The position numbers and the translations under genes are program-made. A DNA stretch of 64,000 nt from Hormoscilla sp. GUM202 (GTDB lineage: Bacteria; Cyanobacteriota; Cyanobacteriia; Cyanobacteriales; Desertifilaceae): the NCBI GenBank assembly GCA_005518205.2, contig RFFC02000019.1:62567-126566 (forward strand), read 5' to 3'. The notes beneath the pieces are model-generated. The model was not told the DNA's origin and made no database searches. It saw only the letters and a list, made by a program, of their open reading frames with translations. Within the stretch, counting starts at the first letter, position 1, and each line of letters opens with the position of its first letter. Shown here piece after piece: positions 49,058-54,360 of this stretch.

Positions 49058-52000
49058 CTATTCTTTTACAACTTCTAGTAACCATTCTTTGATCTGGCTT
49101 CTTTCTTCTGAAGATGCTCCCGAAATATTCAACAGCTTCGGAAGCAGCGATCGCCGACGATCGAAATTTCTCTTAATTCCCGGATATTTTGGTAATTGGC
49201 GATCCACAGCTAGAATGGTTTCTGGCAAGATTCTGACTCGATCGCATATTTCTTGACTGAGGGTCACTCCAGTAGTATGCCATGCAACACAGTGACTCAG
49301 ACAAGAGAGCAAGCATATAGTTTCTCTAGGATCTGTTCTGCGATCGTCTAGCTTATTTAGAACCAGTTTAGCAGCTTGCTCAACATCTGTTTGTTTAGCT
49401 TGCCATATTTCTGGTTGACCTGGACTTATTAGCCTTGCTAAAGCCCATGCTGCTTTGACTCGTTGTCCTAAATGTTGACCATTTGCCATCGCATCATATA
49501 GAAAATTCAAGGTTGTTTGAGAAGGCTGTCCGCATTTTCCCAGAGAATTAATAAATGATTCGGATCTTTTTTTATGTTTATCGGAATTAAATGCTTTGAT
49601 TATCTCCAAATCAAAACCATGCCAAAAAAGTTTTCCGGGAGTTTGTGCAATGCTTTCATATAAAGCATGTTTTAAGTTATTATTTATTAATAAGTCACTC
49701 GAAAGCTTACTTTTAATCCACTGCTGAAACTTTTTTTCCAAATTATTCGCGTCTGTCGAGTAAATTGACTGAAAAATTGTGCTTAAAGCCATCACGGCTA
49801 GTAAAGCTTTAGTCTCGCTCAACGAATTAACCATACCACTCATCTCTAGCCATCTGAGCAGTTCGCCGATAATAGAAAGACGGTTTTTGGCTATAGCCGT
49901 TGTTTTTTCAAGTTCCCGGCGCTTTTGATGTGCCGGTCCATTATTCCAATGCTTATTGAAGCTGTTTGCAAGTGCTTCCCACTGATTAAAATTTACTCGG
50001 ATTCTTTCAGTAATGGGCTTCCCTTTTCTGAGTCGGGGAATAGAGGGAATAGATAATTTGTTAATCGCCTGAGGCGAAACAATAGATGGATGCTTATCTA
50101 AACCTCCAGGAGATGCCACATCTAGTTTAAATCGCGCCTCACTACCTTCTTTGGGGGTGAGTGTCAGCAAAAGCCGTTCGTCAAAAGTGTATTCTACTTC
50201 AAGGTTGAGAGTACAATTGGGTGGTAAGTTGGCGGCATTAATCTCCTCAATGGCAACTTGACGTAGCCTTTGCAGTGTAGTATTATGGTTGGGCTTCGTT
50301 CCCATTCCCACCCAAACTTTAAAGCTCAAATAGCCACTGCTCGTATCGGGTAACTTTAATCCCGATAATACAGTTCTGTAGGGGTATTTTTGCCCTTGGG
50401 CTACCAGCAAACGTAGGGATCTTTTACCTTCGAGTACCTCAAGATAAATGTTGGTCGGATTTACCCTTTGAGTTGATTTGAGGGCCCCTGCTGCATAAAG
50501 CGCTGCTCCCCTGGCTACTGCCCGATCGGGGTTATGACCATCTATAATCGGAACATCTCCAAATAAGCTTTGCAGGCGATCGCGCACCGGTGGGAAGTAA
50601 GTCATGCCACCATTTAAGAGCACTGCATCAATTTTCGGGATTTCACCGCTGCTTTGCTTGGCCTTGAGGATAACTTCCAGCACCGGCACGATTAAGGTGT
50701 TAAGTAGATTCGTAAATGCAGGTTCATCGAAAGCCCTTTGCGGCTCCAAGGCCGTTCCAGAGGCCAACGTTAGACCTTCACAGAGTAGAGGTGAGAGAAT
50801 TTCTGCCATCTGAGATTTACTGATGTAGTATCTGATGGGAAATTGTCCTTCTAAGAATGTTGCTTGAAAGGGGTGCTTGAAATTCTCCTTATCCCCGGTA
50901 CTATCATATTCAGCGCCCCACGCCTTCTTAAACTTTTCAGAAAAAATTGGCAGTTCGTAGGCCAATTTTTGACCATCGGCTTCAGAGAGATTTTTACATG
51001 CAGACCAATTATCTAATATATAATTTGCAATTAGCCGATCTATAGTATCTCCTCCTACCCGGGTACGGGAGCCAATTGCTAAATCATCAATGATAAAAAA
51101 GCTAGCCGATGGCTCCCACAGTACATTGTGCAGCGTGACATCTAAGGTGCCGCCACCCAAGTCATAGACCAGGATATTAGATGGCTGCATCACATCGAAC
51201 AAAGGTGTCAGTTCGCCCTTCTGCACGCGATGCAAGTAATCATATAAAGCAGCTTGAGGTTCTGGGAGCAATACAACTTCCTCCTCTTGCCATCCCGCCA
51301 GCACTGCTGCTTTGCGAGTCGCTTCAATGGCATCTGATTCATAGGAAGCAGGATGGGTTATCACTGCACCCTGCACTGAACCATACTTCCCGATGAGCTT
51401 ATCTCGACAGAAAGCTAGTACCTTAGCAGCCGCTTCTTCAGGAAAAACTTTTCCTGAAGTTAGATCGTAAGCAAACTGCTTGCCATCGATCGAGCGGCCC
51501 ATGTCATGTTTCCAGGCCAGAATAGTCTGGTCGCGAAAAGCATAAGCCTGAGTTTTAACATATCCTCCTACCTCTGCTTCAGCTTGTCCATGGAAGCGGA
51601 CCGCAGAAGGAATGATATCATTAGTAACTAAACTCCCCTGTTCGTCTCTAATCGAAACCGCAACTGCTGCCGCAGTCCATTGCTTCGTCATCAGATTGAC
51701 ATTCGCCAAAGCCATGACTGTATTCGTAGTTCCCAAGTCAATACCTACATAGGTAGGTCGCATGACTTCTTTGAGAGGTTCTACATAATCAGCCGCCTCC
51801 CGCAATCTATTGCCGATCCGATCGCCAATAACTAGGGTTTCGATTCCTTTGCGTTTTAACCTGCCAAACAAACTGGCATAACCGTTGTCATTACTGACAA
51901 CAGCAATCATGGAAATCTGATAATCGGCATTACCAGTAATTTCCTCAGCCCGTGCCTCAATAATTCGATCGACCTCTTGAGGCACGGGGGTGAGTCCAGG

Positions 52001-52189
52001 AGTCAACTCAAAGCCATAGCCAAACTCGCGAAAAGCTCCACCATAAGCGGTAAGTACCGACGGCGTATTAGAGAAAGCCCGGCGAACTACAAGTTGTCCA
52101 TGTTTCTCATGATGAGTTTGACAAATTCTTTCTATATCAGCCAGTTTCGGCTTGATATTATCCAAATCAAGTAAGACAGCAATACTCAT
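49058..52189 (-). CDS. NYN-nuclease / Hsp70 fusion protein
   Basis: A 1043-residue fusion. Residues 1-135 are a NYN/PIN-like nuclease domain: VLLDLDNIKP (Asp 8, Asp 10, Asn 11), VDRIIEARAEEI (Asp 74) and VVSNDNGYASLFGRLKRKG (Asp 101), the pattern of LabA-type Mg-dependent RNases; the second Asp of the SxDxD motif is Gly. Residues 146-570 are an Hsp70 ATPase: YVGIDLGTTNT (147-157), VYDLGGGTLDV (341-351), VGGDTIDRL and VLLNGGMTYFPPVRDRL. About 578-700 resemble a beta substrate-binding domain. About 720-1043 are helical, possibly HEAT-like. The upstream GrpE-like gene ends 25 bp before, making one operon. An ATP-driven chaperone joined to a nuclease suggests client-controlled RNA cleavage; this is inference. 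Confidence 0.85.
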   Translation of the reverse strand: MSIAVLLDLDNIKPKLADIERICQTHHEKHGQLVVRRAFSNTPSVLTAYGGAFREFGYGFELTPGLTPVPQEVDRIIEARAEEITGNADYQISMIAVVSNDNGYASLFGRLKRKGIETLVIGDRIGNRLREAADYVEPLKEVMRPTYVGIDLGTTNTVMALANVNLMTKQWTAAAVAVSIRDEQGSLVTNDIIPSAVRFHGQAEAEVGGYVKTQAYAFRDQTILAWKHDMGRSIDGKQFAYDLTSGKVFPEEAAAKVLAFCRDKLIGKYGSVQGAVITHPASYESDAIEATRKAAVLAGWQEEEVVLLPEPQAALYDYLHRVQKGELTPLFDVMQPSNILVYDLGGGTLDVTLHNVLWEPSASFFIIDDLAIGSRTRVGGDTIDRLIANYILDNWSACKNLSEADGQKLAYELPIFSEKFKKAWGAEYDSTGDKENFKHPFQATFLEGQFPIRYYISKSQMAEILSPLLCEGLTLASGTALEPQRAFDEPAFTNLLNTLIVPVLEVILKAKQSSGEIPKIDAVLLNGGMTYFPPVRDRLQSLFGDVPIIDGHNPDRAVARGAALYAAGALKSTQRVNPTNIYLEVLEGKRSLRLLVAQGQKYPYRTVLSGLKLPDTSSGYLSFKVWVGMGTKPNHNTTLQRLRQVAIEEINAANLPPNCTLNLEVEYTFDERLLLTLTPKEGSEARFKLDVASPGGLDKHPSIVSPQAINKLSIPSIPRLRKGKPITERIRVNFNQWEALANSFNKHWNNGPAHQKRRELEKTTAIAKNRLSIIGELLRWLEMSGMVNSLSETKALLAVMALSTIFQSIYSTDANNLEKKFQQWIKSKLSSDLLINNNLKHALYESIAQTPGKLFWHGFDLEIIKAFNSDKHKKRSESFINSLGKCGQPSQTTLNFLYDAMANGQHLGQRVKAAWALARLISPGQPEIWQAKQTDVEQAAKLVLNKLDDRRTDPRETICLLSCLSHCVAWHTTGVTLSQEICDRVRILPETILAVDRQLPKYPGIKRNFDRRRSLLPKLLNISGASSEERSQIKEWLLEVVKE

Positions 52190-52214
52190 AATTTTCCGCC
52201 ATTCTAGTTTCAGC

Positions 52215-54065
52215 TTATTCCGTAACTTCCTTCACCCGAGCCGGCGTAATGACTTCTTCACCCACACGCCATCCCGGATGAATACAACGTACTATCTTTT
52301 TATCTTCTGAGTTAGCAAAAGCGGAGCCCTCAATATACTCATATACGGATAACTGCTCGCTCTGCAATTCAAAAACTTGGTCCTCCTGGGCTGGATATCG
52401 TGTCACATTAAGTGAATTTAATGCTTGCAACAAATTTTCTAAAGCGATCAGAATGCTGAGGGAGTCGCTGGGAGACAAAGATAACTCCGAGTTTGACTCT
52501 GACATTTTATTTAACCGTTGGTACAGGATCGTAATTTGATCCAAAACTGGTTGAGACTGTTTCTGAAGAGTTGTGACCAATTGACAAACCGCTGACTGGA
52601 GTGCTTGAGAACGAATTTCTGACAGCTCTTTTTGCAATTTTTCATTTTCCTGCTGCAAAAGTTGCACTTGATTTGTGAGGTTAGCTTCAGTCTCTCCTAA
52701 CTCCCGAACTAAATTCTGAGCGGCTTCCTCCTTAATTGCCGTCGGCGTGATGTTAAATTCTTTTTGCAGTTGCCATCCGAATCCCTTCATAAAGGGAGAA
52801 GCTCCCCATTTTAATAATGCTTGATATCCTGCCGATGAGTTAAACATCTCCCGGTCATTTGGCTCCAGAACGGAGGGGAGTTCTGACAAAAACATATATG
52901 TTTTCTCTCGCGACTTTTTGAAATAGTCTATTACCTCACCCAACTCACTCAGCTTGGTTAAATCCCGGTTTTCCGAATCTGCCAACGCATATTCTGCTAG
53001 TTCCACAAACTGACTCAGTTTTGCTTGCATTTGCTCTCTAACTTCCTGGGGAGACTCGCTATACTTGCTTGACAGGTGAAAACAGAAATTTTCTGCCGCC
53101 TCGTACTCAACTGAATCAAATTTTCGGTTAAGTATTTCCTTCCAGCTATCCCCTTCTTTCACAACTATTACACATTTATGGTGAATAGGAGCAATAGCTT
53201 CCTGTCTTTCTTTATCTCTCTGGCTTTTCGGCACAAATTCCCTGTAGGAATAATTGATAAAATTCACTAATCTTCCCCAATGAGATGATGCTAACTCCCC
53301 CTTCAATAGTTCCAGTTGCCGGTTGGCTTTCGTCTCTCCTAAATCCCTAACTTTCTTGATAATTATATCCTTATTTACTTCCTTCTTTTCCTGCTTAACT
53401 TCCTTCCGCGCGATGCCCAAGCTCTCTTCCAGTTGCCATCCGAATCCCTTCAAAAAGGGAGAAGCTCCCCACTTTAATAATGCTTGATATCCTGCGGATG
53501 AGTTAAGCATCTCTCGGTCCTTTTGCTCCAGAACGGAGGGGAGTTCTGACAAAAAGTAATATGTTCTTTCTTGCGACTTTTTGAAATAGTCTATTACCTC
53601 ACCCAACTCACTCAGCTTGTTCAAATTCCGGTTTTCCGAATCTGCCAAAGCATATTCTGCTAGTTCCACAAACTGACTCAGATTTGCTTGCAGTTGCTGT
53701 CTAACTTCCTGGGGGGAATCACTATACTTTCTTGATAGGTGAAAAAAGAAATTTTCTGCCGCATTGTGCTCAAATTTATCAAATTCACTGGTAAGTATTT
53801 CCTCCCAATCCTCATCACTTGATTTGAACAATTTTACGCATTTCGCGTGAATAGGACCAATAGCTTCCTGTCTTTCTTGATTTTTATAATTTTTCGGAAC
53901 CCATTCGCTGTAGGAGTCATTGACAAACATCACTAATCTTCCCCAAGGAGATGCTGCCAACTCTTCTGGTGAAAATGGCGAAGGTTGAGCTGGTTTGTTT
54001 TTCTCTGGACGCGCCAATGCTTTATTTTCTGATGTTTTTTTCGGTTTGGGTTTTTCTGTCTTCAT
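52215..54065 (-). CDS. GrpE-like protein with duplicated novel domain
   Basis: A 616-residue soluble protein. After a Lys/Pro-rich start, a domain of about 185 residues occurs twice (34-218 and 256-440). Both copies share WGRLV, the SY..(E/R)(W/F)VPK block, QFVELAEYALADSENR, LSELGEVIDYFKKS and AGYQALLKWGASPF. A coiled coil (about 445-510) follows. The C-terminal 42 residues (ANSEDKKIVRCIHPGWRVGE) resemble the GrpE beta-domain that opens Hsp70 nucleotide pockets. It precedes the NYN-Hsp70 gene by 25 bp, so it is most simply its exchange factor, with the repeats as target-binding arms. The repeat domain is not recognised. Confidence 0.75.
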   Translation of the reverse strand: MKTEKPKPKKTSENKALARPEKNKPAQPSPFSPEELAASPWGRLVMFVNDSYSEWVPKNYKNQERQEAIGPIHAKCVKLFKSSDEDWEEILTSEFDKFEHNAAENFFFHLSRKYSDSPQEVRQQLQANLSQFVELAEYALADSENRNLNKLSELGEVIDYFKKSQERTYYFLSELPSVLEQKDREMLNSSAGYQALLKWGASPFLKGFGWQLEESLGIARKEVKQEKKEVNKDIIIKKVRDLGETKANRQLELLKGELASSHWGRLVNFINYSYREFVPKSQRDKERQEAIAPIHHKCVIVVKEGDSWKEILNRKFDSVEYEAAENFCFHLSSKYSESPQEVREQMQAKLSQFVELAEYALADSENRDLTKLSELGEVIDYFKKSREKTYMFLSELPSVLEPNDREMFNSSAGYQALLKWGASPFMKGFGWQLQKEFNITPTAIKEEAAQNLVRELGETEANLTNQVQLLQQENEKLQKELSEIRSQALQSAVCQLVTTLQKQSQPVLDQITILYQRLNKMSESNSELSLSPSDSLSILIALENLLQALNSLNVTRYPAQEDQVFELQSEQLSVYEYIEGSAFANSEDKKIVRCIHPGWRVGEEVITPARVKEVTE

Positions 54066-54360
54066 TGCTAATTGCTAATGGCTAATTGCTTATACGAAGT
54101 GCGCGACGCAGTCGCGCTATTGCTAATTGCTTTTTTTCGATGGCGATGGGCAAGGTCTGGGTTCATCATAGCAGTATGATAATACAGTATGACTTTTCCT
54201 GTCAATCGTCCAACCACAATCCCTACTCCCGATCGCCTTCCTTATCTGACTATGATAATACAGGAGAGATAGCCCTGTCAAGAGCCCCATCCCTATTCCT
54301 CTCAGGATGGGAAAAGGATCTTCCCTGAATTATACCATACTGCGGGAAGTATAGCCCCCT

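Follow-up and report, generated by a model that had tools for sequence, protein, structure and literature searches.

The stretch analysed here (the window) comprises 64,000 nucleotides of Hormoscilla sp. GUM202 (contig RFFC02000019.1, positions 62,567 to 126,566) and carries on its minus strand a two-gene cassette, in which gene G, coding for a protein with a GrpE-like C-terminus, lies upstream of gene H, coding for an NYN domain fused to an Hsp70 core and a helical domain. Both open reading frames, 25 bp apart, are present as described by a first-pass annotation made from the letters of this DNA. The genes and their domains, in window positions, are as follows.

52215..54065, minus strand: gene G, GrpE-like partner, 616 aa (open reading frame; homologues in the nine cyanobacterial genomes that also carry gene H)
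53400..53975, minus strand: helical domain copy 1 of G, residues 31-222 (direct repeat, model, pairwise alignment)
52758..53321, minus strand: helical domain copy 2 of G, residues 249-436, at the position retained by single-copy homologues (direct repeat, model, alignment)
52218..52748, minus strand: predicted GrpE fold of G (long helix, helix bundle, beta domain), residues 440-616 (Pfam GrpE; VIA Z 8.5-9.9, six PDB entries)
49058..52189, minus strand: gene H, NYN-Hsp70-helical fusion, 1043 aa (open reading frame; 13 intact loci compared)
51770..52189, minus strand: predicted NYN (PIN-like) RNase domain of H, residues 1-140, with aspartates D8, D74 and D101 (Pfam NYN, model, invariance)
50480..51757, minus strand: Hsp70 nucleotide-binding domain of H, residues 145-570 (Pfam HSP70; VIA Z of about 35 to DnaK/Hsp110 nucleotide-binding domains; nucleotide residues invariant)
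50114..50479, minus strand: sandwich resembling the beta part of the Hsp70 substrate-binding domain (SBD-beta), residues 571-692, with the VLLLDV linker replaced (DnaK alignment reaching DnaK residue ~501)
50000..50113, minus strand: flexible linker of low model confidence, residues 693-730 (pLDDT <50 at 694-710; length varies in homologues)
49061..49999, minus strand: all-helical C-terminal domain (310 aa) at the position of the Hsp70 lid, residues 731-1043 (model)

The N-terminal part of H was matched by the Pfam NYN profile (H residues 3-137 against profile positions 2-142 of 145, E-value 3e-5), as were 12 of 12 homologues of H (best E-value 2e-8), and strands alternate with helices in the AlphaFold2 model of this domain, which bears out the nuclease part proposed by the annotation. 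The motifs that it had read in H (DLDN and SNDNG for the nuclease, DLGTTNT and DLGGGT for Hsp70) were all found there. We assigned the active-site aspartates by alignment and by their spacing to the triad in PMC11346440: the active site of the MARF1 NYN domain consists of D358, D426 and D452, with spacings of 68 and 26 residues, and D8, D74 and D101 of H are spaced by 66 and 27 residues and are invariant in all 13 H sequences. When the NYN profile was aligned by hhalign with three further NYN proteins encoded in this genome, 45 columns only, around the S-x-D motif, were matched (probability 62%), and a PDB sequence search with the same profile gave no meaningful match. Of the outcomes that the annotation named as refuting, neither came about: the NYN domain was fused to Hsp70 in 13 of 13 intact copies, and a GrpE fold is predicted for the partner. 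A search with the C-terminal domain in 244 cyanobacterial genomes found no version lacking NYN; it returned the same nine genomes and one degraded relict, to which, together with the H protein, the C-terminal domain is confined.

Behind the NYN domain, H contains an Hsp70 core and is not a DnaK orthologue. Pfam HSP70 was matched at residues 148-469 (E-value 1e-31), and residues 145-692 of the AlphaFold2 model (mean pLDDT 79) align to the nucleotide-binding domain and SBD-beta of DnaK with a Z of about 36, which agrees with the nuclease-Hsp70 fusion read by the annotation; the NCBIfam DnaK/HscA scores of H are far under the cut-off. The ATPase residues D151, T155, K227, E310, D343, T348, D350 and D381, and also G527/G528, are invariant among the 13 homologues. 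Compared with the DnaKs of the same genome, all nucleotide-contact motifs are retained, about 30 residues are inserted in the nucleotide-binding domain after the DnaK EKAK motif, and the canonical VLLLDV interdomain linker is replaced. The SBD-beta-like part was modelled with moderate confidence. The alpha lid is absent, as the structural match to DnaK stops near residue 692. Nothing better than an E-value of 0.5 was obtained for the C-terminal domain against PDB sequences, and DUF3731, a family considered as a possible relative of this domain, was found in none of 98 cyanobacterial genomes, from which nothing follows since the control was equally silent.

The partner protein G carries a predicted GrpE fold at its C-terminus. 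Pfam GrpE was matched at residues 446-612 (E-value 3e-7) and in 9 of 12 homologues at E-values of 0.01 or lower, and the six best PDB entries for residues 440-616 of the AlphaFold2 model were all GrpE (including 1dkg, 4ani, 8gb3 and 9bls; Z 8.5-9.9), the first unrelated entry being at 5.6; the GrpE-like ending with a beta domain was thus correctly recognised in the annotation. The two copies of the helical domain of about 185 residues, also noticed there, are a real repeat (nucleotide identity 78-89%, spacing 642-666 bp, dN 0.18 and dS 0.22 between the copies). However, the pair of sensing arms suggested on that basis does not belong to the basic design, because G homologues outside the genus of the window are about 380-420 residues long with one helical copy, so that the duplication is private to the lineage of the window. 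Neither Pfam nor PDB sequence searches gave a match explaining this helical domain, and the fold search with the whole G model barely probed the two N-terminal helical domains, for which no new fold is therefore claimed.

Two further GrpE-like proteins are encoded in the genome of the window (L095:471-1967 and L096:4268-4969). In both, the GrpE-like C-terminal part stands behind an apparent helix-turn-helix region, with a long coiled coil in the first, and no Hsp70 gene was seen adjoining either gene.

The cassette is rare and its two genes travel together. Of 386 cyanobacterial genomes sampled, nine carried H, and a search for G in 292 returned these nine as well; more copies were present in Scytonematopsis, in Prochloron, in metagenome-assembled genomes of Hormoscilla and in 2 of 149 genomes of a second phylum (that of locus L030, other than the phylum of the window). 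Two Hormoscilla loci (L026, L029) are 93% and 91% identical to the window locus, and H homologues outside the genus are 45-61% identical to the window protein. In 13 of 13 intact loci G lies directly upstream of H, the two overlapping by 4 bp at one extreme and lying 278 bp apart at the other. Between distant members the flanks differ, with no flanking genes in common. Pairwise identities of H and G are correlated with r 0.98, and the partial r is also 0.98 after regression on aroA, whereas H and aroA identities are correlated with r 0.66 only (aroA correlations computed without the aroA of L030). The trees of H and of G both recover the clades of families f5 and f8 and of the second phylum. 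Moreover, H and G of the window are both nearest Scytonematopsis (61% and 51%, respectively), while its aroA is nearest family f5 (76%). This difference in nearest relative, together with the correlation of H with G, indicates that the two genes of the cassette move, or are lost, together. Therefore, judging from their sequences, H and G are a mobile two-gene pair with a joint history beyond the species signal. Strong purifying selection was seen in every domain of H in one close pair (omega 0.02 for NYN, 0.05 for the whole protein).

Since the NYN aspartates and the Hsp70 nucleotide residues are invariant, both activities appear plausible. We therefore propose, at about even odds, that the cassette may be a mobile RNase-chaperone module in which the ATP cycle of Hsp70 would set cleavage by NYN and a dedicated exchange factor would serve that cycle. 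NYN would act as an endoribonuclease, with the nucleotide state of the fused ATPase governing its position or access; a client, which may be a ribonucleoprotein or else a polypeptide (unfolded, nascent or foreign), would be bound by the beta domain of Hsp70 and/or the helical C-terminal domain; G, likely a dimer, would reset H from the ADP to the ATP state, and its extra helical domain may sense or tether; and stress or infection would alter the client load and so turn RNA cleavage on. The proposal draws on the constant NYN fusion, the invariant active-site residues of both domains, the predicted GrpE fold of the partner encoded directly upstream, the joint history of H and G, the purifying selection in the close pair and the precedent of CoCoNuTs (PMC11090510), in which Hsp70 modules are coupled with RNases; cleavage of RNA, its coupling to the ATPase, contact between H and G and the trigger are inferred. 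The fuller version, a single-polypeptide Hsp70-NYN machine with a sensor-bearing GrpE that converts folding state (stress or viral protein load) to RNA cleavage, is more tentative, and we hold it somewhat likelier to be wrong than right. Several observations weigh against the proposal. The NYN score of the window protein passes the Pfam cut-off only just (25.0 against 24.2 bits), and two acids common in other NYN domains are absent (position 80 is never acidic, and D103 is replaced by glycine in three lineages). The loss of the VLLLDV linker means that classical Hsp70 allostery may not apply. In addition, the cassette is fragmented or rearranged in the Hormoscilla metagenome-assembled genomes L026, L029 and L031, including a second partial copy on one contig, while the window copy is intact; such broken copies in near-identical genomes indicate that the module is dispensable there.

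Three other explanations were weighed against a cleavage set by the Hsp70 cycle. Binding of nascent chains by Hsp70s is established, and the Hsp70 part of H, with its conserved ATPase residues, could recognise growing or misfolded polypeptides on the ribosome while NYN cuts the translated mRNA, independently of phages. A precedent for such co-translational quality control is Rae1/YacP of the NYN family, known from Bacillus and cited in PMC11346440 as an endoribonuclease in ribosome-dependent mRNA decay. We consider this explanation unlikely, because a housekeeping factor would not be expected to show the patchy spread of H in both phyla or an inheritance out of step with aroA. Less likely still is that the NYN domain of H binds RNA without cutting it, forming an RNA-tethered chaperone, which we rank lowest of all. 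In SNDND, the second acidic residue (D103) is glycine in the window, L035 and L061 and is hence no fixed feature, which together with the never acidic position 80 would suit such a role, and the Hsp70 homologues of CoCoNuTs have been proposed as RNA binders (PMC11090510). However, the catalytic aspartates are invariant in all 13 sequences, and NYN is strongly conserved, with a mean column identity of 70% among H homologues versus 53% for the C-terminal domain.

A strict anti-phage (abortive) defence, in which infection triggers the module and NYN degrades RNA, stands between these two and is improbable as well. The patchy, co-inherited cassette with variable neighbourhoods would fit it, and several loci have known or candidate defence genes nearby: in Scytonematopsis the cassette is followed downstream, at about 300 bp, by a retron-type reverse transcriptase (L027:11470-12327, PADLOC RT_VI, E-value 1.6e-89), and Cas8b (L033), HEC-01A/B (L036), PDC-M38A/B (L038) and PDC-M28 (L037) lie by other copies. 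The C-terminal domain is also mosaic in one genus, in the manner of a recognition domain: L037 and L039 share 96-100% nucleotide identity over the first 560 residues, falling to 75-87% in the stretch 678-793 and to 49% at the C-terminal end, and at 756-793 L037 is 92% identical to L038 instead. This mosaic, mostly limited to H residues ~678-1060, suggests recombination in the C-terminal domain, a single case that we take as a lead. Nevertheless, at a threshold of 1e-70, 11 strong PADLOC models matched in the 121 neighbours of the loci, compared with 15 in the 121 control proteins of the same genomes, the control matches being mostly PD-T4-6 models plus one type II restriction-modification pair. 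As the control regions hold defence-model matches too, enrichment and a defence role are not shown, and the stress- or phage-responsive role suggested in the first-pass annotation remains a conjecture. Furthermore, G and H themselves match no defence model, viral contigs contained no relative, and phage records gave just ordinary DnaK-like matches covering part of the protein. Among plasmids, one distant Hsp70 was found and gene G was without match.

No description of an NYN-Hsp70 fusion was found in open PubMed Central (PMC), a scope outside which most subscription journals lie; within it, the opinion of the annotation that this fusion was not a described system stands. The closest published precedent is found in the Hsp70/HEAT and HEPN RNase modules of CoCoNuTs, where CnuD/CnuCD Hsp70-HEAT proteins are encoded in an operon with predicted HEPN RNases and an McrB-like GTPase is central (PMC11090510). 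Both share an Hsp70 nucleotide-binding domain and substrate-binding domain with HEAT-like helices, which in CoCoNuTs have predicted RNases as operon partners (PMC11090510). They differ in that the CoCoNuT RNase is HEPN and the Walker-A of CnuD is degenerate (PMC11090510), whereas here NYN is fused to Hsp70 and the ATPase residues are intact; here the partner is of GrpE type without McrBC, and no GrpE partner was seen described for CoCoNuTs. The NxD McrB-like GTPase with its CnuC/CnuB partners is encoded by neither G nor H, and distant members have no common neighbour. The GAP1-N2 GTPase conflict systems, predicted conflict systems in which HSP70 and GrpE genes are co-encoded (PMC7159879), resemble the cassette in that pairing, but the GTPase and other core components were not seen at the H-G loci, and PMC7159879 is without mention of NYN. 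H and G are like a DnaK-GrpE pair in having an Hsp70 nucleotide-binding domain with SBD-beta and a partner with a GrpE fold, and unlike it in the N-terminal RNase domain, the missing alpha lid and VLLLDV linker, the extra helical domains of both proteins and the lack of any J-domain gene seen adjoining. NYN ribonucleases, such as the CRISPR-associated NYN of B. fragilis and MARF1, have three active-site aspartates at similar spacing and no fusion to a chaperone ATPase (PMC11346440). Hsp70 modules are already known to occur next to RNases, in restriction systems predicted to target RNA; with ATPase, nuclease and putative exchange factor in two proteins with intact active sites, the present cassette is about the smallest version in which control of a nuclease by an Hsp70 cycle can be tested.

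An apparently independent arrangement was observed on Priestia megaterium plasmid pNCT2_2 (L040:2642-9499), where a beta-CASP/RMMBL nuclease, a hypothetical protein, a 583-aa Hsp70 (shorter than DnaK) and a HEAT-repeat protein are encoded side by side. An RNase, a shortened Hsp70 and a helical repeat protein thus lie together as in the cassette, but as separate genes, with another nuclease family and no recognised GrpE, in a single example.

In the window, the cassette is flanked by ctaB-like and ABC transporter-like genes, named from sequence resemblance. At the sites by ctaAB in two genomes of the same family the cassette is absent and the remaining neighbours are also different, so the insertion point is not definable. 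Upstream of G, a consensus scan found the following.

54176..54281, minus strand: two near-identical promoter-like elements, TTGACA ... TATCAT, 76 bp apart

Each element has 11 of 12 consensus matches, which alone are no evidence of function. Both cassettes of one genus have a Crp-family regulator gene on their upstream side.

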